Shown: positions 3,559 to 19,767, counted from the stretch's first letter. The stretch: DNA of 64,000 bases from Nautilia profundicola AmH (GCF_000021725.1 NC_012115.1:1317408-1381407), one strand, 5' to 3'. Numbers and translations are program-made. Notes: generated by a model from the sequence alone, not told the origin.

Positions 3559-4926
3559 TCAATAATAATAGATATAATTCAAATTAAATTCAAAAACCTG
3601 AGGCATAACGCTTATATATAGTTTCAGTTCATCCGCTTTTATTAGCCTTTTTTTACATCCCACGATTATATTGTAACCTAATTTATCCAATGTGTTGTAA
3701 TACAATATAGGATTTGCAAAAAAATGCAGTTTTTTACTGTAAGTATTTTTTTCAGATATATAAGCGCCGGCTCCAACTTCTGAATAAGAAGTAAATACAT
3801 CGGAATACCCAACGTTTTTCAAATAAAACCTAATATTCGCATGTCTGTCGTATCTTCTTATGTAGTCAATGTTAAAAAATCTTTTATTAAAACTTTTATT
3901 TTCATATTTATCTTTTGCAACCCCCAGACTTGTTAAAAATTTATTCTCTGTATTTAATTTAAATTCGGTTTTTATACTTACCAAATTTTCTTTTACGGTA
4001 TAGATTTCCTTATCGGCAAAATTTAAGAAGTTAATATTCTTGTTTATATATGAAAACAGCTTTATTTTTGGATTGTCAATTTCAAAATTTTTATATATTT
4101 TAAATACCATAGACGAACTATCTGAATTCTGATAACCGGCACCTAAAACATAACTGTTGATTTTCTTTGACAGTATTATTTCATTAATATTTTTAAGTTT
4201 ATATATTTCAAGCTCATATTCATTGTGTTTTATTTTTAATTTGTTTGTTATAAAATTTTTTTGAATGTCAAAATTATATGATACATAATTACCGTGCTTT
4301 CTAAACATATCGAAATATGCCTTGTATATTTGTGAATTGTTACTTTTGTTTTTAAAAATTTCTTTTTCGGCCTGTTTGTATCTTTGAAGTTTATAAAGCC
4401 CCTCTATTTTCTGATATGAAGCAATTTTTTTATTTATCAGTCGATTGATTTTATCTTTATCATACTGATATAAAGCCAAATTCATTTTAATATTGTCGGA
4501 AAGTAAAAATTTCTCATTGAATTTTTTAATCTCACTTTCTAATGTGTTTTTTTTATTTAACTTATTTTTTTTATTTAACGACATATTTAGATTATTTATG
4601 TTTGATGTTTTTTTTATATTTTTTTTAATGTTAGTTTTAATGTTGATAATTTTTGAGATTTTTTTAGGGTCGTCCTGCACAATGGAGTAATTTTTAAAAG
4701 GCTTGGTATAGGGCTTTAACTTGTATATTTTATCTTTAACCAAATATCTTACGGTATATTGATGCGAATCGGTAATATAAACGAATGATTTTTTTCTTAT
4801 TTTTGAAGGAAGTTGTTTTAAAAAATTTTCCGCATATTTTTTGGAATTGGATGTATACAGCTGAATAGAGTAAAACTTACCGTACAAACTAATACAAAAC
4901 GCTACTGCAGTTATTAAGGCTCTCAT
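3559..4926 (-). CDS. PelB-type outer-membrane beta-barrel protein (separate C-terminal half of PelB) with SPOR-like N-domain
   Basis: Last gene of the Pel locus. The 455-residue protein starts with its own signal peptide (1-17, MRALITAVAFCISLYGK). Residues 18-70 alternate in a way that resembles a SPOR domain (FYSIQLYTSNSKKYAENF ... VRYL). A Lys/Asn-rich linker and a short helical segment follow (about 75-200). From about 205 to the end there are regular amphipathic beta strands, and the chain closes with an aromatic residue (IYYY), as outer-membrane barrels do. It overlaps the TPR gene by ATGA. Together the two proteins total 1157 residues, close to the single PelB I remember from Pseudomonas (about 1190). 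I infer that it forms the Pel export pore. The SPOR-like call is a visual judgement. Confidence 0.72.
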   Translation of the reverse strand: MRALITAVAFCISLYGKFYSIQLYTSNSKKYAENFLKQLPSKIRKKSFVYITDSHQYTVRYLVKDKIYKLKPYTKPFKNYSIVQDDPKKISKIINIKTNIKKNIKKTSNINNLNMSLNKKNKLNKKNTLESEIKKFNEKFLLSDNIKMNLALYQYDKDKINRLINKKIASYQKIEGLYKLQRYKQAEKEIFKNKSNNSQIYKAYFDMFRKHGNYVSYNFDIQKNFITNKLKIKHNEYELEIYKLKNINEIILSKKINSYVLGAGYQNSDSSSMVFKIYKNFEIDNPKIKLFSYINKNINFLNFADKEIYTVKENLVSIKTEFKLNTENKFLTSLGVAKDKYENKSFNKRFFNIDYIRRYDRHANIRFYLKNVGYSDVFTSYSEVGAGAYISEKNTYSKKLHFFANPILYYNTLDKLGYNIIVGCKKRLIKADELKLYISVMPQVFEFNLNYIYYY

Positions 4927-7031
4927 CTTTCAAACCTTCGTAATTTTTCATATGCACGCATATAATCTAAATATAAAGCGTAATATTTTTTATAATTTAA
5001 ATTGTGTGATTTTAAATAATTCAGAATTTTCTTTATTTTATAATAAGAACCGTAATGCAAAAGATTATAAAAATAAAAATCTCGATATGTCTGGTTTTTT
5101 AAAATTTTTTTATTTCTTGTAATTAGTTTATCAATTCTTCTGAATAACATGAATTTAATCTTTTCGTCATTCGTAAGATAATAATATTGTATGAGTAAAT
5201 TTATATTGTTTTGTTTTTTTAACTGTTTTTTTAACAATTTCATTGCTTCATATTTTTTATTTAAAAGTAAATAAGCTCCCAATAAAATATTTTCATCTTT
5301 AATTTGGTTTAAATAATTTGCAATTCTTTTATCTTTTCTGTCAAGTAAAAACCAAAAATAATCATTTCTAAATTTAGGGTATTTATATATAAGCCGCTGA
5401 TAGAGTTTGTCAAGTTTTTCATATTTATGTAAATCATTATAAACTTTAACTAAAAACTCATAATAAAATTCCGGTTTGTTTTTAATATTCAAAGAAAGTA
5501 TCGCTTTATAGTTTTTATTTTTATATGTATATTTTAAATACTCAAACAACAACGCATTAGAGTACATATAATTTTTTTCCAAAACATCATATGCTTTTTT
5601 TATATTGTTTTCATTTAAATATGACAGATAAAGTTCATAAATTGTTTGAGGTTCTTTTTTAATTTCATTCATATGTTTCAACCACTTGATTTTATCCTGA
5701 ATGAGGTTAAGTTTATCAGAAAGATAATACATTCTCGAATAGTATTGATATGTGTCGCTTTTTATTTTTTTCATAACTTCATACGCTTTTTTATAATTCA
5801 TATCCGATATATAAATATTACTTACATAAAAAGCGACATCCAAAGGTATACGCCTGAACTCATCAGCTAATTTCAAAACTTTTTCATCATCCCCGAGTGC
5901 ATAATAAATCTTGAAAAGTTCAACTAAAAAAAGGTCTTTTTTTGTTCTTTGATATAGTTTTTTATAAAACTTTATACCTCTTTCAAACTGTGCATTATTA
6001 ATGTAAGTATAAGTAAGTTCTTTTATATATTTAAGATTCCCTCTTTTTACTTTATCTTCAAAAATATTTAATAATAAAGACTCTTTTTTCAGATACATTG
6101 CCAAAGGAATCACTATTTTAATATTTTTTTTAACGCCGTCTTTTATGAAATATTCCAACGCTTTATCATATTCTTTATTCCATAGATAAACTTCAGCCAG
6201 TAAGTAATAATTATCTGTGTTTTTTAGAATTTTAACCGCGTCTTTATATCTTTTCAAATTGATGTACGCTTGAAGTTTGAGCTCTTTGTTTTCCGACCTA
6301 TCAACAGAGAACCTAATCAGTTTTGTGTTTTTTGTTAACAGTCCCACTCTTAAAAGAGTATCAAAACCTTTTTTGGTTTTTATTTTTTTATAAAACTGCC
6401 TTGCGTAAAGATTGGCCAATGTGTTTTCTTTTAAATACAATAAAACCTCTTCCATTTTAATAAAATAATTTTCGTTAAATTTTTTATTGACTTCACTTTC
6501 AAGATATCTAAGAGCCGTTTTGTATTTTTTCAACGCTAAAGCAACATTTATAAGCTCATCCGTATAATGAAGATGTTTTAATGTTTCAAACTCCAAATCT
6601 AATAAATTAAAACTTTTTGCTTCTTTATAAATATATTCAAACTGTTTATCTTTTTTTGCATATTCAAATAATGTATATAAAAATTTTTTAATTTCACTTA
6701 TACCACTTTTTTTATTAAAATATTTTCTTTTTGCAATCAAATATTCGTAATAAAATTTTTGATAACTGTCTTTTTGTTTTTTTAATAACTGCTCCGCTTT
6801 TTTAAATTCTCCTAAATTTATATATTTTTCTGCCAAAATATATTCCAATTTTGAAGAAGGGTAAAATTTTAAAATATTTTGTAAATACTTGACAGCCGTT
6901 TCACTGTTGTCGTTTTTAATCATTGTATATAAAGTATTTCTTGGAAAAGCGGCCAATAAAAAAATAATAAATATTACAACAAATGCCATTAACTCTTTGG
7001 TAGTTAGGAACTTTTTACTTTTCGGCAGCAC
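4923..7031 (-). CDS. pelB: PelB-type TPR protein (separate N-terminal half of PelB)
   Basis: A 702-residue membrane-anchored TPR protein. One hydrophobic segment (about 14-30) precedes a long array of helical repeats to the C-terminus, with typical pairs such as AEKYINLGEFKKAEQLL. In Pseudomonas PelB one inner-membrane helix, a periplasmic TPR superhelix and the outer-membrane barrel lie on a single chain. Here the TPR part stops without a barrel and the barrel is the next gene. The start is a GTG at 7031 with AAAGG six bases upstream, inside the end of pelA. It probably bridges the periplasm and recruits PelA to the export pore, by analogy. Confidence 0.8.
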   Translation of the reverse strand: MLPKSKKFLTTKELMAFVVIFIIFLLAAFPRNTLYTMIKNDNSETAVKYLQNILKFYPSSKLEYILAEKYINLGEFKKAEQLLKKQKDSYQKFYYEYLIAKRKYFNKKSGISEIKKFLYTLFEYAKKDKQFEYIYKEAKSFNLLDLEFETLKHLHYTDELINVALALKKYKTALRYLESEVNKKFNENYFIKMEEVLLYLKENTLANLYARQFYKKIKTKKGFDTLLRVGLLTKNTKLIRFSVDRSENKELKLQAYINLKRYKDAVKILKNTDNYYLLAEVYLWNKEYDKALEYFIKDGVKKNIKIVIPLAMYLKKESLLLNIFEDKVKRGNLKYIKELTYTYINNAQFERGIKFYKKLYQRTKKDLFLVELFKIYYALGDDEKVLKLADEFRRIPLDVAFYVSNIYISDMNYKKAYEVMKKIKSDTYQYYSRMYYLSDKLNLIQDKIKWLKHMNEIKKEPQTIYELYLSYLNENNIKKAYDVLEKNYMYSNALLFEYLKYTYKNKNYKAILSLNIKNKPEFYYEFLVKVYNDLHKYEKLDKLYQRLIYKYPKFRNDYFWFLLDRKDKRIANYLNQIKDENILLGAYLLLNKKYEAMKLLKKQLKKQNNINLLIQYYYLTNDEKIKFMLFRRIDKLITRNKKILKNQTYRDFYFYNLLHYGSYYKIKKILNYLKSHNLNYKKYYALYLDYMRAYEKLRRFER

Positions 7032-9519
7032 ATTTAACCTTTACTGCGTTGTTATATATTATCAATTTACAGTTTTTAGGAAGAAAAAAATCAACTTTTA
7101 AATCACCGAAACCTTCATCGAAATTATAAATACCGTTACGGTGCGACATTATTCTTTTATTTGCGTATTTCAAATACGGAACGTCACTCTTACCGAATAC
7201 AATTTTATGTAGTTTAGTATTGTCTAAAGAAATATAGGTATATCCTTTTTCAAATACGTATCCCAACACTCCCTTGCTTTTTTTAACATCAACATCATGA
7301 TTGCCTTTTATTTTCAGGGTTCTTAAATCTGAAGAGTTTTTGTATATATAAAAGCCGTTCAAGTCTTTTAACAAATACGAGTTCTCAAAATCTTTTGCAA
7401 TTTTTATCCACTCACTTGTATACATAGGCAAAACATGTTGTTTTAAAGAATAATTTATTACATTTTTCAATGCATACAACGAAGCCGGATAAGCCCCGGA
7501 ATAGTGATGAAAATAAATATCGACAGCTTTAAGCCTTCTTGGATTCTCCGTCAGTTCAATTGTCTGCTTAGCTTTTATATATCCAAGCTTGTTTTTCCAT
7601 AAATCGGTATATATGTTCTCATTCGCCATTTGTGCGTAAATTTGGAAATACTCGCCCCTGTATATCCCAAGAGGAGCAATATAATATAAAAATTTTTTAC
7701 TTTTCATTATATAAGTGTCTTGTCCGTTAATGGCAAGTATGCCGTGATTATCAACATATGCCAAAACATTGCGCGGCGGATTACAAGCTCCCGTCCAAAA
7801 AAAGAGATTCGATTTTTTACCCGCAAGTTTAGACACAAATTTCAATGATCCGTTTATTTCCCTTATAAAAGAAAAACGGTAATTTTTTATTGGGAGTCTC
7901 GGATGGTTTTTATCAACCCAGTCAAAAGGATGAGAAAAGCTATGACTTGCAGGTTCCACATTTTTTAATCTGAAGATTTTACGCGCTATTTTCATTGCCT
8001 GTTCGGAATACTGAGGATATAAGCCATACGGAGCAATTTCTCCTTCGATAACTGAAACGGAGAAAGGTAGATTATATTTTGAAAAAACTTTTTCATACAG
8101 TTCCTCGGAAGCGAATTTTGATGTTATGATATTTTTATTTACAAACCCGTCCCCATCTATATGGGAAAACCATATTCTTCTGCCGTTTTCCGTAGTAAAA
8201 TCAGGTAAAGGAAGTTCTTTTAACCCAAGTGTTTCAGGTATAAAAGTAAACGGATTCACTTTCCATAAAATTATATTCCCATAATAATCAAAAGGATTTA
8301 TAAAATATCCTCCCCATTCTGTTTTTGCGGCAATAACAGTCTTTTGATTAGCTTTATTAACAAATGTAACTAAATATTTTGCATTTAACGGATCGATTAT
8401 TGGATATGTTTTAATTGTGCCCATATCAAATGTCGATTCAAAAGGTTTTAATGCACTTTTATATAAACTAAAACAGTATGAATTTGATTTGTATGTATTT
8501 ATTTTTAAAAAACTTAAATTCTCTAAACCGAATTCAGATAAAAAAAGGATTTTTTTTCCTTGTTTAATTTGAGCATTTAACCATTTCTGATAAATTTTTT
8601 GATTTTTAACTTTTTTTTCCAAAACAACAATTATGTAATCATACATCGATGTGTCGTAAGGAAGTTCGGTAACTGTTTTCAAATCCGGAATATATCCGAA
8701 AAATTCAAGAGGCATAGACACCATAATGTGAGCCAAGGAGTTTTCTTTTGAATCTATTGTATTATAAACAACTAATATTTTTCTCGGTATCAAATATGTA
8801 TTACTCACACCTATACTATATAAATTTTTATCCGCAATATACGGTATAAAGCCTAAATTCTGAATTTTTTTAGCCAAATCAACCGCTATATGTTTATCAA
8901 ACGGTTCAATATAATCTATAACTATAGGAATAATTCCTTTTGTTTTTGCATTATTCAGTTCAGAAATTATAAATTTTTTTTCATTTTTAGAAATATTTCT
9001 TCCATTATCATTTGTAAACAAATTTTCCACAACAATTGCATTCGGTTTAACTTCATCTATAAATTCGAATCCTCTGTTAAATATTATGATTTTATTTTTA
9101 AATATTTTTTTCACTTCTTTTAAAAAATTCAAAAGTGCGTTTTTATAGCTCTTTTTATCAACTTTTGTTAATTCAAAACTATCAAGCGTATCTAAAAAGA
9201 CACCGTCAAAATTATTTAATTTTTTGATTTTATTTAATAAATATTTTTTGTATTCTTTATTTCTTATATCATATATGTAACTGTGCCATTTTTGATTATA
9301 CCCTATAATCCATTTTGGATTTAACTTTTTTTCATTTTCTTCAACACTAAAATATGCTATTAATTTAGAGTCCGTTTTATATCGTTTTACATTCGAATTA
9401 ATAACCAGCCAGTCATACGTATAAAAAGCTTCTTTCGGGACATTAAACTGATAATTAAACCCGATGCTCAGAGCAAAAAGACAATTAAAAAAAAGACTAA
9501 AGAAACATAAACGTTTCAT
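7015..9519 (-). CDS. pelA: PelA: Pel polysaccharide hydrolase/deacetylase
   Basis: An 834-residue periplasmic enzyme that trims and deacetylates Pel during export. It has a signal peptide at 1-18 and a GH114-like hydrolase domain at about 25-235, with D110 in DGVFLD and a probable catalytic E165 in VVEN. A linking domain follows to about 440, then a CE4-like deacetylase domain with metal-site residues in SHIDGDGF (D455, D457) and ASHSFSHPFDW (H526, H530). This domain order matches Pseudomonas PelA. I place the start at the ATG at 9519, which has AGG seven bases upstream. An in-frame TTG at 9534 lacks that support. It overlaps pelG and pelB. Confidence 0.92.
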   Translation of the reverse strand: MKRLCFFSLFFNCLFALSIGFNYQFNVPKEAFYTYDWLVINSNVKRYKTDSKLIAYFSVEENEKKLNPKWIIGYNQKWHSYIYDIRNKEYKKYLLNKIKKLNNFDGVFLDTLDSFELTKVDKKSYKNALLNFLKEVKKIFKNKIIIFNRGFEFIDEVKPNAIVVENLFTNDNGRNISKNEKKFIISELNNAKTKGIIPIVIDYIEPFDKHIAVDLAKKIQNLGFIPYIADKNLYSIGVSNTYLIPRKILVVYNTIDSKENSLAHIMVSMPLEFFGYIPDLKTVTELPYDTSMYDYIIVVLEKKVKNQKIYQKWLNAQIKQGKKILFLSEFGLENLSFLKINTYKSNSYCFSLYKSALKPFESTFDMGTIKTYPIIDPLNAKYLVTFVNKANQKTVIAAKTEWGGYFINPFDYYGNIILWKVNPFTFIPETLGLKELPLPDFTTENGRRIWFSHIDGDGFVNKNIITSKFASEELYEKVFSKYNLPFSVSVIEGEIAPYGLYPQYSEQAMKIARKIFRLKNVEPASHSFSHPFDWVDKNHPRLPIKNYRFSFIREINGSLKFVSKLAGKKSNLFFWTGACNPPRNVLAYVDNHGILAINGQDTYIMKSKKFLYYIAPLGIYRGEYFQIYAQMANENIYTDLWKNKLGYIKAKQTIELTENPRRLKAVDIYFHHYSGAYPASLYALKNVINYSLKQHVLPMYTSEWIKIAKDFENSYLLKDLNGFYIYKNSSDLRTLKIKGNHDVDVKKSKGVLGYVFEKGYTYISLDNTKLHKIVFGKSDVPYLKYANKRIMSHRNGIYNFDEGFGDLKVDFFLPKNCKLIIYNNAVKVKCAAEK

Positions 9520-10864
9520 AATGAAACCTTTCAAAATTTTTATTCAAAAAAACCAATCCTATAATAGAAACAATAAAATATGCCAATGCGAATCCGTAAC
9601 CATAATAAAAAGGACCTAAATATTGTGTAAACAGTGTCAAAGAAAAATTCAAAAAAAACAAAAGTACAACCAAAACCAAGACTTCTTTTCTTCTATCTAA
9701 ATAAAACAGTATTGTCACAATAGCCATAAAAAAAACCAGCAGCGTTGTACCTATCATGTCTACAATAAAAAGAGGAATATATATTTTGGATATATGGAAA
9801 AAATTAAAAATATTATCTGCAAAAAGGATTATAAGAAACGTTACAAGTATCTGTATTCTCAAGATTTCAATCAAACCCATTTTGGCACTGTCAAACATTT
9901 CATTGGCATATATGTATAACTCTTTTAATGTTCCGTTTTCCCTTGCGGCCGAAAAATATTTATCATAATTCAAAGCAAAATCCACTTCTATTCTAAGTAA
10001 AAAAATAGCCATAGCCGGAGCAATTGCTAAATAAGCTAAAAAAATCGGATAATCATATATAGGAGAAAACCTTAATAATCCAATCCCTTCCACACTCGTA
10101 GACGGTGCAAACCAAAAAATAAATTTATCAATCCATATACTCGCATTAAGAAAAAACCCTATAAAAACCAAATCCTTGTATATATTTTTTAAAAACTCAA
10201 AAGAAATTAGTTTATTTGTTTTAAACTCTTTGAAAAACATCGACATTAAAAAATACAACAAAATAGACTGCCCTATAAAAAATGAAAGCATAAAATATTC
10301 AAGTCCCAAATCTCCTATAATTACAGACAGCACGACAATTAAAACATATGAAATCAAAAAAGAATAAAAAATAAATTTATAATTTTTAAGTCCAGTTAAA
10401 ACTATATTCACAATCCATATTGCACACATAATCACAAATGTTGCTTCAAATAAAAACGTAAGCATTAAATTTTTCGTTTCATGATATATAGAAATACTAA
10501 AAGGTAAAACAAAAATACTCCCTATTAGCATACTAATCACAATAGCACCTATAGTGTTAGGTAAAACTTTTTCTTTTTCTTTTTTAAATAACACATCGGC
10601 AACGTATCTTGTAAACGACAACTGAAAAAAACTTGTTGTAATTAAACTAAAAGCAATAATATACGTTATCATTAACGTAAAAGCCACCACCATGTGTTTA
10701 CTGTTGAAATAATAATTAACCAAAAAACCTGCAACCAAAATACTTAGCATTGAGACTATCCAAGGTCCTGAGCTTACTATACCTGCATACGAAAACGCTT
10801 TTACAAGAGAAAAAATAGTGTCTTTTTTTAATATTTTTCTAATTTCGAATCCGATACCCGCCAT
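9497..10864 (-). CDS. pelG: PelG: polytopic inner-membrane Pel biosynthesis protein
   Basis: A 455-residue membrane protein with about twelve transmembrane helices. The N-terminus MAGIGFEIRKILKKD followed by SYAGIVSSGPWIVSM is the hallmark of PelG, a MATE/Wzx-like protein that works with PelF, PelD and PelE in the inner-membrane synthase. Its coding sequence begins on the last base of the pelF stop codon (TAATG) and runs 23 bases into pelA, so it is translationally coupled on both sides. Length equals the usual PelG length. Confidence 0.95.
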   Translation of the reverse strand: MAGIGFEIRKILKKDTIFSLVKAFSYAGIVSSGPWIVSMLSILVAGFLVNYYFNSKHMVVAFTLMITYIIAFSLITTSFFQLSFTRYVADVLFKKEKEKVLPNTIGAIVISMLIGSIFVLPFSISIYHETKNLMLTFLFEATFVIMCAIWIVNIVLTGLKNYKFIFYSFLISYVLIVVLSVIIGDLGLEYFMLSFFIGQSILLYFLMSMFFKEFKTNKLISFEFLKNIYKDLVFIGFFLNASIWIDKFIFWFAPSTSVEGIGLLRFSPIYDYPIFLAYLAIAPAMAIFLLRIEVDFALNYDKYFSAARENGTLKELYIYANEMFDSAKMGLIEILRIQILVTFLIILFADNIFNFFHISKIYIPLFIVDMIGTTLLVFFMAIVTILFYLDRRKEVLVLVVLLFFLNFSLTLFTQYLGPFYYGYGFALAYFIVSIIGLVFLNKNFERFHYETFMFL

Positions 10865-12348
10865 TATTTCTCCAGATATTTTAAATAAATGTCTCTATAA
10901 TTTTTAAGAAACATCTCTTTAGTGTATAACTTTTCAACTCTCTTAATTGCCGCTTTTTTTGCATCATTGTATAAATCTTCGTTTTTAAAAAATTTCACAT
11001 AAGCTTTCGCAAGTTCTGTCGGGTTTGCTATAGAAACGACTTCACCAGCTTTTCCTAACTTTTTGTCTTCCTGATTTCCACCGTATATCAAGTCCTTACA
11101 ACTCCCTACATCTGTAGTTACAGCAGGTATACCTGCGGCAAAGCCTTCTATGATTGTTAAAGGCATTCCCTCACTAATTGAACTTAATGTCAACAACCCG
11201 GTTTTAGGTAGTATATCTTTTATGTTTTGAAATCCTAAAAACTTAACTTTTTCCCCTAATCCTAACAAATCCACTAACGTATGACATTCCTTTGCGTATG
11301 TTTCATCTTCATCTTCTGGTCCAACAATCCAACCTTCGAGTCCTCCAATCTCTTCACTGGCTATTTTTACAGCTTTTATAAATGTTTTAATATCTTTTAT
11401 AGGAACAACTCTTCCTATAAGTGACACGACTTTGGGTATTTCATTTTTTCTGAGTTTAGATAATTCCTCAACATCAACACCATTCGGTATGACTTTTGTT
11501 TTATTTTTATCTGCTCCGTATTCTATTTGGATTTTTCTTGCTTTTTCAAAAAGCGATATAATTATGTCAGCACTTTCATACGTTATTTTTCCTATATTTT
11601 CAAAAAATTTAATCCACATTTGCTTTGCATAAGCCAGTTCACCTAATTTTTTTTGAAAAATACTTTTATTTTCTTTAAATAAATTCGTATTTAGCATGTC
11701 TATTTTTCTTTCTCTCACATATATGCCATGCTCTGTCAAAACAAAAGGAATTTTATAATTTGAAGATAAAAGCGATGCTAAAAACCCGGCATATCCTGTT
11801 GACGGAGAATGTACCATTTTAGGCTTTTTAATATTATTAGCAATATTTACCACTCTCCAAATAGGAGTATGCATATTCCTAACAGACCAAAAATAATCAA
11901 TAAAAGGAGAATCAGGTGTATTTTTCATGTAGTTTTTTTGAATATATTCCCATGAAGATTCCGAATATAAAAATTTTTCAAATGAGGCTGTGGTATTATA
12001 AAACTTAAGGGATTTCACATACTCTGGCATTGTTTGATCTTTTGAATTAAACCACTCATGCAATTGTTCAACAATGTTGAAATCTTTGTATTTCGGAATA
12101 TATTTCGGAGACGGAGTTTCTTCTTTTTTAAAAAGATAATCAACATACAGATATGTTAAATTTTCAGGCAATTCATATTTTATCTCTTGATAATCAGATT
12201 CGGCGGAACCGATAAATACTAATCCGAATTTGAACTCATTCAATCCGGTTATTAATTGATGTATCCAACTCGAAACACCTCCACGTACATAAGGATAAGT
12301 TCCCTCAGCCACTATTAAAATATCATAATCCCCGTTTCTAAGTATCAT
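10864..12348 (-). CDS. pelF: PelF: GT4 glycosyltransferase for Pel
   Basis: The cytosolic polymerase of the Pel pathway, using UDP-sugars. The N-terminal signature EGTYPYVRGGVSSWIHQL is specific to PelF and carries the glycine-rich turn of GT-B enzymes. The C-terminal nucleotide-sugar half has SLIGRVVPIKDIKTF and the E-x7-E pair in SEGMPLTIIEGFAAG. I choose the ATG at 12348 (494 residues), with AGG seven bases upstream and an 11-base overlap with pelE. A TTG at 12381 would add 11 residues but lacks a clear ribosome site. Confidence 0.94.
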   Translation of the reverse strand: MILRNGDYDILIVAEGTYPYVRGGVSSWIHQLITGLNEFKFGLVFIGSAESDYQEIKYELPENLTYLYVDYLFKKEETPSPKYIPKYKDFNIVEQLHEWFNSKDQTMPEYVKSLKFYNTTASFEKFLYSESSWEYIQKNYMKNTPDSPFIDYFWSVRNMHTPIWRVVNIANNIKKPKMVHSPSTGYAGFLASLLSSNYKIPFVLTEHGIYVRERKIDMLNTNLFKENKSIFQKKLGELAYAKQMWIKFFENIGKITYESADIIISLFEKARKIQIEYGADKNKTKVIPNGVDVEELSKLRKNEIPKVVSLIGRVVPIKDIKTFIKAVKIASEEIGGLEGWIVGPEDEDETYAKECHTLVDLLGLGEKVKFLGFQNIKDILPKTGLLTLSSISEGMPLTIIEGFAAGIPAVTTDVGSCKDLIYGGNQEDKKLGKAGEVVSIANPTELAKAYVKFFKNEDLYNDAKKAAIKRVEKLYTKEMFLKNYRDIYLKYLEK

Positions 12349-13309
12349 GCCACAGCCTGTATATGTTATAAAATTTTTCAATATATTTAATTTCGGGATA
12401 CTGCTCTATTAATTTTTTAACCGTCTTAAAATCTTTTTTATAATATGCAGCTTCAATAAAATAAGTTACTGTATCGCTGTTAATTTCAAGTTGTTCTAAT
12501 ATTTTAGAAACATTTTCGTAATCTTTTTTCATTAAATATACTCTCAGTAAAATCATTTTAGCTTCTTTCGAAGAATTGTTCTTAAGAATATCAATGATAT
12601 TGTTTATATAGTATTCTTTAAAAGTTTCATCAGCCAGTTGCAAATAAATCATTTCCCAATAAAGCTTTGCGAGTTTGAGTTTAAGGTCTTTTGCATTACT
12701 GTTTTTTAATATTTTATTAAGTTTAAAGATTTCATTGTTTATCTTTTCGTCCAATGAATTTATTAAAGAAAAACATAACAACCTAATTTCATCATTTTTA
12801 TCTCTTAGCCCAAACTTTAAAAACTGAATACTTAAAGGCGATATTATTTCGGAAATTATAATAAAGGCTTTCAATCGAAGGTCAGGATTTAAATCCTGAT
12901 TAGTAATATATGAAACAATCGCCCCTTCTCCCAAAAATCGTTTTATCAGCAAAAGCTCATCCATCGTTAAAAGTTTTTCAACCTCTATATGTTTAAAATC
13001 ATCTTCTGTTTTTTTTGTTTTTTTAATTAAAATAAGATAAAAAATTAAAAGCCCTATATATGCCAGTACGGGCATAAAAAAAACAAACATAAAAACAAAT
13101 AAAAAAATAAAATATTTTCTTGTTTCAACATTAAATTCTTTAAATAAAGAAAAACTCATTAGAACAGATATAAAAATACTTAAGACATAATGTAAAAACA
13201 AAACCAAAAAAATAGACATATTATAAAAATTGTAAAAAAAGAAATTAACAATAACAAAAGTATCTAATATTATCAATAAAAATAAAACGACATTGTTAAC
13301 TGTCTTCAT
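12338..13309 (-). CDS. pelE: PelE-like membrane/TPR protein
   Basis: A 323-residue protein with two or three hydrophobic segments in the first 105 residues, a basic stretch at about 107-120, and a helical-repeat cytosolic part to the end, with TPR-like pairs such as YYKKDFKTVKKLIEQYP. It sits between pelD and pelF, where PelE is found in Pseudomonas, and overlaps both neighbours. PelE is the least conserved Pel protein, so the name relies on topology and position more than on a motif. The ATG follows AAGG. Confidence 0.8.
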   Translation of the reverse strand: MKTVNNVVLFLLIILDTFVIVNFFFYNFYNMSIFLVLFLHYVLSIFISVLMSFSLFKEFNVETRKYFIFLFVFMFVFFMPVLAYIGLLIFYLILIKKTKKTEDDFKHIEVEKLLTMDELLLIKRFLGEGAIVSYITNQDLNPDLRLKAFIIISEIISPLSIQFLKFGLRDKNDEIRLLCFSLINSLDEKINNEIFKLNKILKNSNAKDLKLKLAKLYWEMIYLQLADETFKEYYINNIIDILKNNSSKEAKMILLRVYLMKKDYENVSKILEQLEINSDTVTYFIEAAYYKKDFKTVKKLIEQYPEIKYIEKFYNIYRLWHDT

Positions 13310-14456
13310 TTAATGCCTTGTTGAGGTTATCCAAATCCATTTGCATCAAATCATATACTTTATATTCAACATCTATTTTTCGTAAAACCTTGTTTAAAAA
13401 TTGATTTACCCCGATCTCGTTTGTAAAAGGTAAAATTACAACCAATTTATCTTTATATTCAAAAAATATATCAACTCCTCTTATCATTTTTGATATCTGA
13501 ACACTCTGCAGAGGATTTTTAATATTGAAGATGACTATATGATTTTTTATTCCGTATTTTTTAGACAAATATCTCAAACTTTCAATTTCTTTTGCCACTA
13601 ATGGATCAATAACGTATTTATGGTATTTTTCGGGAATATTCAATAAATTAACAAAATACGTTAAAAAGAGAGAAATTGTAATAAGATTATCTTTGGAAAG
13701 ACTGAAAAACGGCATCGATTTTATTACAAACAAACCTTTTAATTCATCGCTTAACGATACAACGGGTATTACCGCTATATATTTACTGCTGTTATCCGTA
13801 TTAATTGAATAGCTCAAATGTTTATTTTCCAATACCTGCTTTACTAATTCGTCATCCATATCTAAATTGATTTTTTCTCCAATATTTCCTTTTAACTCAT
13901 AATCGCCGTCCTCTTTTTTAAAAAACAGACTTGCTTGTTCCAATTTAAACAGTTTTTTTAAAAGGTTTAGAAAAATATCTATACTTTTATTTTTATCTTT
14001 TTTTATACTTTCTTTTATTTCCTTTAATATTTCTCTAATGCTAAAAGGTTTTAAAATATAATTTTTTTCAAGCTCGTCATGAGAAATTTTTAATAAATAA
14101 TAAGCATTTCCCAAATCCTCGACCCTTCTTTTCAAAAAACTATTTTCTTCATTCAATTTTTCTAATTTTCTATTCCAAAAATATTTAAACTCGCTGAAAA
14201 TAAGTAAAAATATAAAATAATGACTGAGCATAAAAATATCAACACTTCCTAAAAAGAAATATTGAGCGGCAAAATACAAAATATAAAACACAAGCGAATA
14301 AATAAAACCGTAAAAAAGAGAAATTATTATAAGTGCATACAGATATATATTTATTAAGTATTCGGAGTAAAACATCTCTTTTGGAGAGAAAAAATAGTTA
14401 AAAAGCACTAAAACAATAAAAATAACGAATGTTTCAATTAAAGCGTATAATTTCAT
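13296..14456 (-). CDS. pelD: PelD: membrane c-di-GMP receptor of the Pel synthase
   Basis: A 386-residue receptor that switches on Pel synthesis when it binds c-di-GMP. The first 92 residues hold three to four transmembrane helices, then comes a coiled stretch (95-130), a GAF-like domain (about 150-270) and a GGDEF-fold domain (about 285-386). R326-G-V-D329 matches the RxxD inhibitory-site motif. It lies exactly where that motif precedes the active-site hairpin, which here reads EYKDKL instead of GGDEF. Binding without catalysis is the defining PelD property. It overlaps pelC by ATGA and pelE by 14 bases. Confidence 0.93.
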   Translation of the reverse strand: MKLYALIETFVIFIVLVLFNYFFSPKEMFYSEYLINIYLYALIIISLFYGFIYSLVFYILYFAAQYFFLGSVDIFMLSHYFIFLLIFSEFKYFWNRKLEKLNEENSFLKRRVEDLGNAYYLLKISHDELEKNYILKPFSIREILKEIKESIKKDKNKSIDIFLNLLKKLFKLEQASLFFKKEDGDYELKGNIGEKINLDMDDELVKQVLENKHLSYSINTDNSSKYIAVIPVVSLSDELKGLFVIKSMPFFSLSKDNLITISLFLTYFVNLLNIPEKYHKYVIDPLVAKEIESLRYLSKKYGIKNHIVIFNIKNPLQSVQISKMIRGVDIFFEYKDKLVVILPFTNEIGVNQFLNKVLRKIDVEYKVYDLMQMDLDNLNKALNEDS

Positions 14457-14938
14457 TTAGTCAACTTAAACAAATTATCAAACCCTTCTTGAGTTAAAAC
14501 CCCCACGGAATTATAAGTATCTCCCACCCTGCTGAAAGTAGCGACATAAATGTATTGTTTTTTAGCTTTATCATAAATTTTCACAGTTACACTAACTGCG
14601 GGTTCACCGTCTATGCCGGTTTTATATCTGTATTCATTTACATATCCCGTAATAATATATCTGGCATTTACGTTTTTTAACAAATCGTTAATATCTTCAA
14701 CCGAATAATCTCTTTCTTCATAATTCCATAAACTACCGTTTAAAGAAACACCTTTAGATCTTAAAACACCTTCTAAAATACCGGCAACTTTATATCCTGC
14801 CATCGGAGTTTGAGTAAGGTTTGCAAATGGGATTATTTTGTAAGTATTTTTAGTAGGAAAATTTGAGCTCATATTATATGTTTCTTTAACGCATCCCGTA
14901 AAAAACAATAATATTACAGCTAATAAAATTTTTCTCAT
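14453..14938 (-). CDS. pelC: PelC: outer-membrane lipoprotein for Pel export
   Basis: A 161-residue lipoprotein. A short signal peptide ends in the lipobox FFTGC with C16 as the lipidated residue. The mature part begins with a flexible segment, then a small alpha/beta domain (KTYKIIPFANLTQTPMAGYKV ...) typical of PelC. In Pseudomonas, PelC forms a dodecameric funnel around the PelB pore on the inner leaflet of the outer membrane. The ATG at 14938 is preferred over the GTG at 14941, with AGGGG six bases away. It is the first pel gene of the run, 60 bases after rdgB. Confidence 0.9.
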   Translation of the reverse strand: MRKILLAVILLFFTGCVKETYNMSSNFPTKNTYKIIPFANLTQTPMAGYKVAGILEGVLRSKGVSLNGSLWNYEERDYSVEDINDLLKNVNARYIITGYVNEYRYKTGIDGEPAVSVTVKIYDKAKKQYIYVATFSRVGDTYNSVGVLTQEGFDNLFKLTK

Positions 14939-15001
14939 CACCCGCCCCTCTTGTAAAGAAAATTTTAGAATTTTATAATATAAGCATTAACAAAATATTA
15001 A

Positions 15002-15589
15002 TTAATTATTAATAGATTTTAGTAAAATATTTGCTAATTCCAATGCTTTGCTTCTGTGAGAAATTGATTTTTTAATATTTTCATCAAGCTCACCCAATGT
15101 TTTATCAAAGCCTTTAGGTATAAACATAGGATCGTAACCAAAACCTTTATTACCCCTTGCCTCATCAATCACATTACCATGCATAAATCCGTGCGTTGTA
15201 AAAATACCATAAGGTGTTGCAAGAGCTATTGCGGCTGTATAATATGCGTATGTTTTTTTAATATTTCTTTTTTTAAGTTCATCAATCAATTTATATAAAT
15301 TATCTTTATCACTTGCTCCTGCTCCTGCAAACCTTGCGGAATATATACCTGGTACACCACCTAAAACCGGTACGCTTATACCGCTATCATCCGCCAAAAC
15401 TATACTACCGGGAAGTTTTTCATATATGGTTTTAGCTTTTATTATCGCATTGTCTTTAAAAGTAGTACCGTTTTCTTCTATCTCAAACGGTTCAATTAAT
15501 TCGGAATAAGGAAGAATTTCAATACCTTCAAAAAACTTCTTAATCTCTTTTATTTTTCCTTTATTGGAACTTGCTACAATTATTTTCAT
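15002..15589 (-). CDS. rdgB: XTP/dITP diphosphatase (RdgB/HAM1)
   Basis: House-cleaning pyrophosphatase that converts dITP, ITP and XTP to monophosphates and so keeps non-canonical purines out of nucleic acids. The N-terminal [14 protein letters not shown] binds the triphosphate. [22 protein letters not shown] and GKGFGYDP-like [13 protein letters not shown] are family signatures, and SHRSKAL is near the C-terminus. The true start is the ATG at 15589 (195 residues). It overlaps the stop of the upstream gene by ATGA and has a perfect GGAGG six bases before it. A longer reading from 15625 would add a basic tail and has no support. Confidence 0.96.
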
Positions 15590-16863
15590 TTTTTTCCTCC
15601 GAAATCTACTAAAAACATCCCGCAAAAACTGTCTTTATCATATATTTCGACCCTAAACATTTTGTGATTTTTATCCACAGCATATTTTTTTATAAGCTTG
15701 TCTTTTGTAATTTTTTTATATGCTTCATTCTGTTTGGAACTATAACCAATAACATTAATCCTTTTATCACTTAAAACTTTAAAATATTTGTCAACTTTTA
15801 CAATACTCGGTACGGTTATTTCTTTTTTCTGACCGTCAATTTCTATTTTTATTTTTTTTATTTTACAAAAATTCTTAAAATATTGAGGATATAATACTGC
15901 GTGTCTATTGTATCCTTCATATAAAACATAATAATTTTTTTCTTTTACTACCGCCACTAAAGGGTTACTACTTTTAAAAGTAATCTGTTTCGATGTTAAA
16001 GGAAAAAAGTTGATAACTTTGTCAATATTTTTAACTGGTAGAATCGTATTACCGTTTATAATAACATAATCCTCTTTTTTCAATAGTTTTTTAATTTCCG
16101 GTATAGTAAGATCAAAATTTCTCGTATATTTTATTCCGACTATTTTCATAAATTCTTCAATAGCCCTTAACTGGTAATAAATTTTGGTTGGCAGATCTTT
16201 TATGTTTTTGCTTGTTTCAATCGCGAAAGCAGGCTTTCCGTGAGTTATTGCAAAATACGTTAAAGACAACCTCATCTGTTCATCTTTAAACTTGGTTTTG
16301 GTGTTTTTTACATTAAAAAAATGATAGTTCTTTTTTAAATCCGTATTTAAACAGCTTGATACTTTTCTTGCTATATCCCCCAAATTACCAAATTTATTTG
16401 TTTTTATTTTTTCCTGGTCTATGATACAGGTCTGTCCCCATGCGGCAGGATTAAAAATGGAATTTTGCCATGAGTTTCTGTAAAACCCGTGTCCGTCATG
16501 AAGATTTAAAACCATATCAATTTTGGGGTTTAAAATAATTTTTTTTATGTCTTCAACAATATTATAATCTTTATCTTTCTTATCAATAAAGGCGAACTTT
16601 CTATTCATATCCCCGTAAACGCCTCTTCTAAACTTAACAATGGAATCAAAGTTCAAATTCGGTACAATCCATAAAGAACCTTTATTTATATCGTAATATC
16701 TGATTAAAAAAGACGGAGCATAGTAACCTCCCGGCTCATTTCCATGAATTCCACCGATTACAAGTAACGTGTTTCCCTGTTCCCCGTTTTTTTTATAAAG
16801 CGTAAAATGAAGATTTGCAGCATTTAAATAAAAAGCTAAAATAATTATTAATAATTTTTTCAT
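15586..16863 (-). CDS. pgp1: M14-type peptidoglycan DL-carboxypeptidase, Pgp1/Csd4-like (cell shape)
   Basis: A 425-residue periplasmic zinc peptidase with a signal peptide (1-16). The ligand motif HxxE is H40-E43 in GIHGNEPGG, the third ligand is H122 in [11 protein letters not shown], and E216 in FAIETS fits the catalytic glutamate. These contexts match Csd4 of Helicobacter pylori and Pgp1 of C. jejuni. Those enzymes cut muropeptide tripeptides to dipeptides and set helical shape. From memory, H. pylori Csd4 has Gln as the first ligand, whereas this protein has the canonical His. The upstream neighbour is the partner carboxypeptidase Pgp2/Csd6 (TAATG overlap), which strengthens the call. 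Confidence 0.85.
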
Positions 16864-17822
16864 TATTTCTCCGCTATAATTTTCAACCCGTCGTTAGTAA
16901 ATTTGACATAAAGTTCTTTAGGCCCCGCATATTTATAATTTTTGGATATATACTTTTCAAACATATTAATTCTGAAAATCTTTTTATTGTTTATATTTTG
17001 ATAAGGGACAATATCTATGTCCTTAAAATATATTTCAACTTTTTGATATTTTTTATTTTCAAAAACTCTTTTTTTATAATCTAAAAACTCTTTTAAGTCT
17101 TTGCCGTCCGATTTTTTAAAACTTTCATCATAAAAATTCTTATAACTTTCAAAATCGTTATTCATCCATGCCTTTCTCCACTTATATATAAAAGCCAAAA
17201 TAGAGGCTATTTCTTCTTTTGTAGCGGTTAAAGGCACATTTTCGCTTATTAAAAGATACGTGTCTTTATAATTGATTTCATTTTTAAGCTGCAGCAGTTT
17301 ATTGTTGTCCATAACAATACAACCTTTTGTATTGTTATCATCTCTTTTTCCTTCAAGCGGTACGCCGTGTATCCATATTCCGTGACCATTTTTATGATTA
17401 ATCTTATCAAACAGGTTCGGATACCCGGTAACAAAAGCAAACGGTCCGTAAAAACTATCTACATTTTCAATTAATCCTTTTAACTTATAAACGCCTATCG
17501 GGGTTTTTAAATCCCCCTCTTTTTTCTTGTCGCCGTCAAGCCCCGTCAATACTTTTACCGTATCGATTAATTTAAACGTGCTGTCATTGTTTTCAAATAT
17601 TTTTAATATTTTTTTTGACTTAACGCAAACTAAAATATCCTTTTGAGTTTCGTAATACCCCCATGTCACATCTTTATTTTGCAATCTTTCTAACCAGTAT
17701 GTTTTACTTCCCAAAATTTTTTCAATATGTTCACTTAAAGCATCACTACCGTTAAACCTATAAATATCAATCAAATTTGCAGAATATAAAAAAGTCACCA
17801 AAAATAGAATTAAAAACCTCAA
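16863..17822 (-). CDS. pgp2: L,D-carboxypeptidase Pgp2/Csd6-like (YkuD + NTF2-like domains)
   Basis: A 319-residue periplasmic enzyme: signal peptide (1-15), a YkuD-fold catalytic domain (about 60-195) and an NTF2-like domain (about 205-319). The catalytic motif reads IHG (H152-G153) then NTKGCIVM with C168. This is the architecture of H. pylori Csd6 and C. jejuni Pgp2, L,D-carboxypeptidases that trim tetrapeptides to tripeptides and feed the next enzyme, Csd4/Pgp1. That partner is encoded directly downstream with a one-base overlap. An L,D-transpeptidase role is the alternative, but the NTF2 domain and the neighbour favour carboxypeptidase. Confidence 0.85.
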   Translation of the reverse strand: MRFLILFLVTFLYSANLIDIYRFNGSDALSEHIEKILGSKTYWLERLQNKDVTWGYYETQKDILVCVKSKKILKIFENNDSTFKLIDTVKVLTGLDGDKKKEGDLKTPIGVYKLKGLIENVDSFYGPFAFVTGYPNLFDKINHKNGHGIWIHGVPLEGKRDDNNTKGCIVMDNNKLLQLKNEINYKDTYLLISENVPLTATKEEIASILAFIYKWRKAWMNNDFESYKNFYDESFKKSDGKDLKEFLDYKKRVFENKKYQKVEIYFKDIDIVPYQNINNKKIFRINMFEKYISKNYKYAGPKELYVKFTNDGLKIIAEK

Positions 17823-17850: not shown

Positions 17851-19767
17851 TCAAATTATTTCCTGCGGTTTCCCAAAATAAAATCCTTGGGAACAATCTA
17901 CATCCAACTCACACATTTTTTTATAAATTTCTTCAGTTTCCACATATTCCGCAACTATTTTCATACCTCCTTTTTTAGCGAACGCAACCATTGTTTCAAC
18001 TATCATTTGTGATTTTCTATCTGTTAAAATATTCTTGATTAAACTGCCGTCAATTTTGAATCCGTTAACTTCAAAATTGAAAAGGTAACTAAAATTTGAA
18101 TACCCGCTTCCGAAATCATCTATAAATATTTTTACTCCCTTATCCCTTAAATACCTCATAAACTCAATAGAAGTTTTTGATTCGGTTATATTCTCGCTTT
18201 CAAGTAATTCTATGGTAATTCTTTGTGGTTCAGGAAATTTTTCTATTAAATCAATAACAGCGTTTCTTATTTTTTCATTTTCAAAATCTTCCAAATCAAG
18301 GTTTAATGAGACAATTTCCTTTCTGTCTTTAAATGTTTCAAGAGCGGTTTTAAATACTTTTTTTGTTATTTCCGGATACAAATTCGCACTTTTAGCAATA
18401 TCCAAAAAACTTCCCGGAAGATATATATTTCCTTTCTCATCTTCAATTCTTACAAGAGCTTCATACTTCACGATTTTTTTTGTTTTATTCTCAACAATAG
18501 GCTGGTAATATACTTTAATTCTGTTGTTTTTAATGGCTTTAACCAAAATATTTAAAATTTTAAGATTTTTTTCGAACTCTTTAATGGTGTCTTTTATATC
18601 ACAAAAGCATAAACATTTTTCCTTTCTTCTTTTTGCATATTCAAGAGCTATGTCCGCTGTTGTCAAAAGATTTTCTTTTGCCTTGCTCATACCGCACCTG
18701 AAAGTCAATATAATCTCATTTTCATTTATATGATAAGGTTTTTCAAGTTCTTGCAATATGTTTGCAATAAACTTAAAATTGTCTTCTTTTTTACTGTATG
18801 GTAAAGGAACAGCGAATTCGTCTATATTTATGTGATATGCTTTTGTTAAATTTTTAATTCTTTGACCAATAAAATAAATTAATTTATCACCTATTTCCTG
18901 ACCAAAATAATCATTTATTTCCCTAAAATTATTTATATTTAAAATAGCTAAGTTAAATTTTTCTTTTTTAAGATCTTCATTCAGTTTAATTCTGTTCGGT
19001 AATTTTGTTAAATCACTTATAAGATAGCTTTTAATCATCTCATTGCGATAATACACTATCGATTTTACCGCCGTATTGATCTCTTTTTTCAATTTTTCAA
19101 ACTCGATGTATTTCATTTTTGTCTTTAAAGGTTCATAAATACCTTTTTCTATTTTGTTTTTAAAATACATAAGTATAATATTAATATCTTCCCTAATAGT
19201 TTTCATATAATCATAAAAATAATAAAGAGTAAACACCAACGCAATACCCAAAACAATAAAAATCCACATAAATGTCTGATTATATTTCTGAATTTGATTT
19301 TTAATAGGCAGTCTTGCTTCAAGCACCCCTATGAAATCCCCCAACCTGAACCCAGTATAATGATTTCTTTTTAATCCTCCGTGACATCTAATACATTCAC
19401 TTTCAACAATTAAAGGCCTGTAATAAATTAATGTATCTTTTTTAATTTCATACAATTCTTTTTTCTTTTTCAGTTTGTTTATAAATTGTTTATCGAAAGG
19501 TAAAAATTTATCATCCAGCAACGCATGGATTTTAAAATCGATATTTGTTTTTTTACTATAAATTTTTATTATATCAGCGAAGCTGTTTTTATATAACATT
19601 TGTGAATATTTCATTACAATCAATGAGTCTGTAGCTGTTTTTGCTTTATCTATCTGATCTACTATCAATTGTTTATAGATTATAAAATATAATATCACCA
19701 AAGCTGCAGTTGCTACAAATAAAGACAGTACAATTATTTTAGCCATTTTTAAAAAAAGGTTGGTCAT
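17851..19767 (-). CDS. Haem-c sensor (DUF3365-like) - degenerate GGDEF - EAL phosphodiesterase
   Basis: A 638-residue membrane protein predicted to hydrolyse c-di-GMP. Helix 1 is at about 10-32, a periplasmic sensor domain follows with a c-type haem motif CIRCH (125-129), and helix 2 is at about 167-186. The GGDEF domain (about 250-370) has HINIDEF in place of the GGDEF loop and should not be a cyclase. The EAL domain (about 395-635) keeps the usual catalytic set: EALVR, the N of SLNLD, E in IELLES, DDFGSGYS, KIDGS, AEYVE and the Q of SQGF. The stop is only 28 bases before pgp2, and the Pel locus with its c-di-GMP receptor lies downstream on the same strand. Confidence 0.9.
   Translation of the reverse strand: MTNLFLKMAKIIVLSLFVATAALVILYFIIYKQLIVDQIDKAKTATDSLIVMKYSQMLYKNSFADIIKIYSKKTNIDFKIHALLDDKFLPFDKQFINKLKKKKELYEIKKDTLIYYRPLIVESECIRCHGGLKRNHYTGFRLGDFIGVLEARLPIKNQIQKYNQTFMWIFIVLGIALVFTLYYFYDYMKTIREDINIILMYFKNKIEKGIYEPLKTKMKYIEFEKLKKEINTAVKSIVYYRNEMIKSYLISDLTKLPNRIKLNEDLKKEKFNLAILNINNFREINDYFGQEIGDKLIYFIGQRIKNLTKAYHINIDEFAVPLPYSKKEDNFKFIANILQELEKPYHINENEIILTFRCGMSKAKENLLTTADIALEYAKRRKEKCLCFCDIKDTIKEFEKNLKILNILVKAIKNNRIKVYYQPIVENKTKKIVKYEALVRIEDEKGNIYLPGSFLDIAKSANLYPEITKKVFKTALETFKDRKEIVSLNLDLEDFENEKIRNAVIDLIEKFPEPQRITIELLESENITESKTSIEFMRYLRDKGVKIFIDDFGSGYSNFSYLFNFEVNGFKIDGSLIKNILTDRKSQMIVETMVAFAKKGGMKIVAEYVETEEIYKKMCELDVDCSQGFYFGKPQEII

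Follow-up and report, generated by a model that had tools for sequence, protein, structure and literature searches.

Pel, a biofilm sugar, and similar polymers have to cross the periplasm and the cell wall in register with an outer-membrane pore, and PelB has so far been pictured as a single chain that bridges both membranes. In the pel locus of Nautilia profundicola AmH, a bacterium of deep-sea vents, the bridge is divided between two genes, with an additional domain on the pore half. The genome is a single finished contig of 1,676,444 bp, which is the published size (PMC2628731), and the window considered here is the whole stretch of 64,000 nucleotides that was analysed (GCF_000021725.1, NC_012115.1:1317408-1381407). 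A complete pel operon is present on the minus strand of the window in the order pelC-D-E-F-G-A-B, and from ORF calls and translation the operon ends with pelB as two genes that overlap by ATGA:

14453-14941, minus strand: pelC, lipoprotein (match to PelC 9h80_C, E 3.8e-15)
13296-14456, minus strand: pelD, divergent (from position and homology across relatives' pel loci)
12338-13309, minus strand: pelE, divergent (from position and homology across relatives' pel loci)
10864-12381, minus strand: pelF (NCBIfam equivalog NF038011, 613 bits)
9497-10864, minus strand: pelG (PF16933, E 1.2e-129)
7015-9534, minus strand: pelA (match to PelA in PDB entry 9cgy, E 4.4e-89)
4923-7031, minus strand: PelB-N, inner-membrane-anchored TPR scaffold, 702 aa (GTG start; ORF and translation)
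3559-4926, minus strand: PelB-C, separately secreted outer-membrane barrel chain, 455 aa (ATG start; ORF and translation)

Both pelB genes are thus located in an operon with pelA, pelC, pelF and pelG. The pelE product has no PelE family match of its own, and the matches of PelD to its family are weak (Pfam PelD_GGDEF, E 0.09; solved PelD in the PDB, E 0.1). Control of the Nautilia pel operon by c-di-GMP is uncertain, PelD being so strongly diverged; a GGDEF-EAL protein is encoded near pel at 17851-19767.

The upstream pelB gene had been annotated at first pass as encoding a 702-residue TPR protein with one membrane helix, and this was confirmed. Its TPR motifs are significant (TPR_19, E 1.5e-9, Pfam), and a single transmembrane-like segment was found (hydropathy 3.27 over 15 residues from residue 14):

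6939-6995, minus strand: PelB-N transmembrane segment (about residues 13-31; hydropathy)

This segment is probably uncleaved, and the N-terminal helix of Pseudomonas aeruginosa PelB is likewise uncleaved (PMC12141448). PelB-N is colinear with parts 1 and 2 of relatives in which pelB is carried by three genes (residues 13-154 and 245-670), and provides the N-terminal membrane helix and TPR scaffold of a PelB.

The downstream gene encodes the remaining modules, together with a putative signal peptide and a domain, here called the head, that lies behind it:

4876-4926, minus strand: PelB-C signal peptide (about residues 1-17; hydropathy and sequence, with a model helix at residues 2-15)
4657-4875, minus strand: SPOR-like head (about residues 18-90; model pLDDT 85.7, head family against SPOR by hhalign, iterated search)
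4498-4656, minus strand: Lys/Asn-rich linker, modelled with low confidence (about residues 91-143; low pLDDT)
4294-4497, minus strand: two helical hairpins and a stalk helix (residues 144-211; AlphaFold2 model)
3565-4287, minus strand: 16-strand outer-membrane barrel (residues 214-454; model, Foldseek and conserved C-terminal alignment columns)

PelB-C starts with a signal-peptide-like segment, MRALITAVAFCISLYG, in agreement with the earlier proposal that the barrel protein has a signal peptide of its own; this was called from hydropathy and sequence, with the cleavage site placed by the same means rather than by a dedicated program. The AlphaFold2 model (mean pLDDT 67.7, pTM 0.52, the second half of the barrel being better than the first) has the expected C-terminal PelB-type barrel of 16 strands, and a Foldseek search of the PDB ranked P. 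aeruginosa PelB first (9h80_M, E 2.2e-11, TM-score 0.52/0.59), the next matches being BcsC and a bacterial polysaccharide outer-membrane secretin (4y25). PelB-C does not match the Pfam family for the PelB barrel (PF24604), and neither Pfam nor NCBIfam gives it a PelB family, so its homology is taken from relatives and from the fold. Three-gene relatives match PF24604 strongly (6.8e-36 and 3.8e-32), and the homology of PelB-C to the product of their third pelB gene covers its whole length (residues 3-452 against 5-555 of the L039 protein, E 4e-15). As judged from the model and these alignments, the second protein is the PelB pore. In the 9h80 structure the resolved part of PelB comprises a 16-strand barrel and, enclosed by the PelC ring, a TPR pair and a stalk (PMC12141448). 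In the model, PelB-C residues 144-211 would be equivalent by position to this TPR pair and stalk, which would place the Nautilia split just before the PelC-docked module.

The two-gene design is genuine. The ATGA overlap is real, and the summed length of 1157 aa is, as had been noted, near that of a one-chain PelB, the solved Pseudomonas chain having 1193 aa. A second Nautiliaceae genome, an independent MAG (contig JAMOSZ010000052; L034 and L067), has the same layout, with pelB genes of 723 and 413 aa and the same 4-base overlap, and the three-gene relatives also show ATGA-type overlaps. A frameshift or assembly artefact is excluded by these independent genomes and by the second start, which has its own signal peptide and an extra domain. 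Given, in addition, that the genome is finished and that nothing was found in favour of such a reading, the chance that both genes derive from one intact pelB through an error of sequencing or annotation is negligible. The departure of Nautilia from the single-chain form is instead a recurring variant.

A survey of pelB gene structure across Campylobacterota, comprising the window and 26 relatives' loci with a complete pelB region, found pelB split in 22 of the 27 loci, the splits falling at two sites. Eighteen have genes for about 290-370 and 900-1118 aa, two are of the three-gene type (G104 and G158; 361+548+573 and 350+526+565 aa) and two of the Nautilia type, leaving five one-chain loci (1184-1213 aa); a further genome, G200, has a three-gene layout as judged from fragments. 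Outside Campylobacterota, split pelB genes for about 260-395 and 915-942 aa are present in Geobacteraceae, other delta-group MAGs, Hydrogenothermaceae and Elusimicrobia, and pelB is one chain in the pel loci of beta- and gammaproteobacteria. In a tree of PelF and PelG, Nautilia groups with the three-gene loci (SH-aLRT 94). Since the one-chain Campylobacterota loci lie nested inside the split clade, with four changes needed between one-chain and split forms, the simplest reading of this tree suggests that one-chain PelB in Campylobacterota is a re-fusion; these proteins have the junction of the two parts near residues 315-323 and keep no remnant of a signal peptide. A split pelB is not in itself new, both because most of the surveyed Campylobacterota loci are split and because "pelB fission ... 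in aquatic thermophilic species" is already named in a figure legend (PMC7112194, Fig 5 iii). That case resembles Nautilia in the fission, in a rearranged pel order and in the kind of organism; the figure legend itself mentions neither a signal peptide nor a head domain, and it lists no split sites or species. Splitting of pelB is thus a known kind of event, and the new element is the SPOR-type head on outer-membrane exporters, a combination that was not found in the open-licence literature.

The suggestion that a SPOR-like segment follows the signal was upheld in substance, through relatives, profiles and fold, although the head fails Pfam's own threshold for SPOR (PF05036; 15.8 against 21 bits, E 0.017, residues 16-61). 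When a profile of twelve heads was compared by hhalign with 27 SPOR domains taken from relatives, the match reached 96% (E 4.7e-9, 69 columns); none of 40 column shuffles exceeded 0.67%, and none of 45 real control segments exceeded 4%. Cys-rich heads alone scored 93% against SPOR, and the four Nautilia-type heads alone 1% against SPOR and 5% against the other heads, so that the link of the window head to SPOR depends on intermediates. Such intermediates exist. The head profile finds proteins with a Pfam SPOR domain (E 6.7e-9 and 1.1e-8), and the headed protein of an alginate-like locus itself passes Pfam SPOR at 23.7 bits. An iterated search from the window head alone reached a Pfam SPOR protein (L165/L179, Pfam 2.2e-8) in its second round and took in a classical SPOR protein at a later one; the database was small and loci retrieved by the head profile entered the later rounds, which makes the E-values of this search flattering; the second-round match had been retrieved independently, by Pfam SPOR. 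The head is modelled with the beta-alpha-beta-beta-alpha-beta topology of SPOR domains. A Foldseek search with the head gave nothing significant, its best match by probability and TM-score being the RlpA SPOR domain with denuded glycan (0.82; 0.50/0.52; E 0.22), and the head profile matched no PDB entry by sequence. Taking profile, iterated-search and predicted fold together, the window head is a member of the SPOR superfamily.

The conserved residues of the head bear on what it might bind. SPOR domains bind peptide-free amino-sugar glycans, and of their glycan-contacting side chains a single one is conserved throughout, a Gln (Q270 in RlpA, Q351 in DamX) that contacts an N-acetyl group (PMC6895207). 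Two head residues, Q22 and R60, are nearly invariant. The glycan-contacting Gln of RlpA aligns with Q22, which is kept in 10 of 11 heads, the L034 head having Glu instead, and R60 appears by alignment to occupy the position of RlpA R311. This near invariance, even in diverged heads, weighs against the proposal that the head has lost glycan binding and serves as a protein-protein docking module, joining PelB-C to the TPR half or to the PelC ring. Some docking would be needed now that the covalent link is gone, and the Nautilia-type heads are those most diverged from SPOR; heads nevertheless occur on barrels with no split TPR partner (Porin_O_P), and there are split PelBs with no head. On balance a docking module is unlikely.

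Wherever the split falls, the head immediately follows the signal peptide of the chain that bears the barrel; it precedes the TPRs in the 334+1118 aa types and the linker and stalk in the 702+455 aa and three-gene types. The three-gene loci carry it, as do seven of the 18 two-gene loci split near the N-terminus, two of these seven having it in tandem. None of the five one-chain Campylobacterota PelBs carries a head, and the absence of any head from 11 split Campylobacterota loci indicates that it is not needed for a split exporter. No SPOR head was found in the one-chain PelBs of beta- and gammaproteobacteria, nor in 17 genomes outside Campylobacterota, searched with no positive control. A neutral fission of the gene without consequence for the mechanism, the head being a relic carried along passively, would accord with how often splits, fusions and head gains or losses occur (12 architecture changes on the tree, and seven head changes within Campylobacterota). 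The head is conserved, though, keeps a constant position behind the signal peptide and is reused on unrelated barrels, which makes neutral fission very improbable.

Matches to the head profile were found in 54 of 299 Campylobacterales genomes, the weakest being ordinary SPOR proteins. Porin_O_P proteins (E 4e-42) carry the head and are encoded beside pel in two genomes, where they lie just upstream of pelC (L060:14047-15846 and L037:449-2086). AlgE-like exporters (PF13372, 8e-12) with a head are encoded in alginate-like operons of Nautiliaceae and, by synteny, of another family; these operons contain a sugar dehydrogenase, a GT2, an HlyD, a beta-helix protein, the head-barrel protein and a TPR protein. 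Such synthase operons are found at L219:821-11325 and in L217, L218, L220, L221 and L224, the exporters of L221 and L224 having two heads. The head is also present on 524-540-aa proteins beside MMPL and LolA-like genes and on a TPR protein in a secretin locus. This recurrence on non-Pel outer-membrane chains speaks for a general envelope tether rather than a reader specific to Pel. If the head were to bind the Pel polymer itself and feed it to the pore, its ligand would be a peptide-free amino-sugar chain like denuded peptidoglycan, of the kind that SPOR domains recognise, and Pel exporters do carry heads, as does a porin whose gene lies in pel loci. No Pel is expected, however, for the AlgE-like exporters, beside the MMPL/LolA-like genes or in the secretin locus, and most headless split Pel exporters still look intact, so that binding of Pel by the head seems rather unlikely.

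Several loci depart from the usual pel layout in other respects. At L213:4020-10843 a headed PelB-like protein (979 aa) adjoins an ABC-2 exporter (ATPase and two membrane subunits), and the stretch read contains neither pelF nor pelG. In the pel loci at L056:9727-10620, L211:7771-8649 and L212:9385-10272 the PelA homologue is short, about 295 aa against 840-920, and is followed in each case by a headed PelB of about 1000 aa. PelF is 570-582 aa long in five genomes (L058-L062), with an insertion near NF038011 model position 370, and a second pel copy of G085 (L214:2743-4286) has PelF apparently broken into two ORFs and no recognisable pelA.

The first-pass annotation had also pointed to neighbouring peptidoglycan carboxypeptidases as fitting a pore tied to denuded peptidoglycan. 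Two such wall enzymes are indeed encoded, by family match, upstream of pelC:

15586-16863, minus strand: Csd4 (M99)
16863-17822, minus strand: Csd6 (YkuD)

Csd4 and Csd6 trim peptide stems rather than strip them, and denuded glycan requires amidases, not carboxypeptidases. The neighbours therefore lend the idea little weight, and the notion that they make the ligand of the head was dropped. In Nautilia csd6-csd4, with csd4 in single copy, adjoins pel (15586-17822, minus strand); in G104 and G158 the pair is convergent, downstream of the pelB barrel gene (L225:11798-14058; L068:18301-20558), and G010 has pel but no csd4. That the pair adjoins pel in two relatives as well is suggestive.

The reading that best accommodates these observations, with a probability of roughly 0.6, is a modular Pel exporter in which a SPOR-type domain ties the outer-membrane half to the cell wall. 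The inner-membrane TPR half, held by its uncleaved helix, would receive Pel from PelDEFG, guide it through the periplasm and present it to PelA. The half in the outer membrane, which has a signal peptide of its own for export, would be a separate unit docked in PelC and would carry the stalk and 16-strand pore. With no covalent bridge left between the membranes, these halves would have to pair non-covalently. The head, on a flexible linker of about 50 residues, would most likely bind glycan strands of the wall and so keep the pore and the PelC ring placed. Against such a tether stand the failure of the window head, taken alone, to pass Pfam SPOR and the 1% score of the Nautilia-type heads on their own, together with the lack of a significant Foldseek match for the head, the 11 headless split loci and the Glu of L034.

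Compared with known systems, the Nautilia exporter shares with P. aeruginosa the uncleaved N-terminal transmembrane helix, the TPR scaffold, the TPR/stalk module and the 16-strand barrel (9h80; PMC12141448), as well as PelC and PelA in the operon. P. aeruginosa PelB is, however, one chain joining both membranes, with no second signal peptide or SPOR-like head, whereas the Nautilia protein is split and headed. With SPOR domains (PF05036; RlpA 6i09, FtsN 1uta, DamX 2lfv) the head shares its fold, a YxxQ motif with the glycan-contacting Gln and a periplasmic place; it differs in falling below the Pfam threshold and in standing N-terminally on an outer-membrane export barrel rather than on a division protein, the Nautilia-type heads being strongly diverged. 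Alginate export by AlgE and AlgK is alike in having separate TPR and barrel proteins in a synthase-dependent exporter. The barrel of AlgE has 18 strands, and AlgK is a TPR lipoprotein of the outer membrane, whereas the TPR half in Nautilia has an inner-membrane helix.

A naturally cut bridge, with a domain of wall-binding type on the pore half, suggests that the covalent link between the two membranes is dispensable and offers a testable alternative to the single-chain picture. It is possible, at somewhat less than even odds, that the SPOR-type domain has been recruited repeatedly in Campylobacterota as an N-terminal wall tether of export barrels (PelB-C, AlgE-like exporters, Porin_O_P and other porins), giving a class of wall-anchored exporters in which the anchor replaces PelB's covalent two-membrane bridge. 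The occurrence of the head on exporters of several kinds suggests that outer-membrane channels may be anchored to peptidoglycan in this way more generally, and a role for SPOR domains outside cell division would broaden the functions known for the family.
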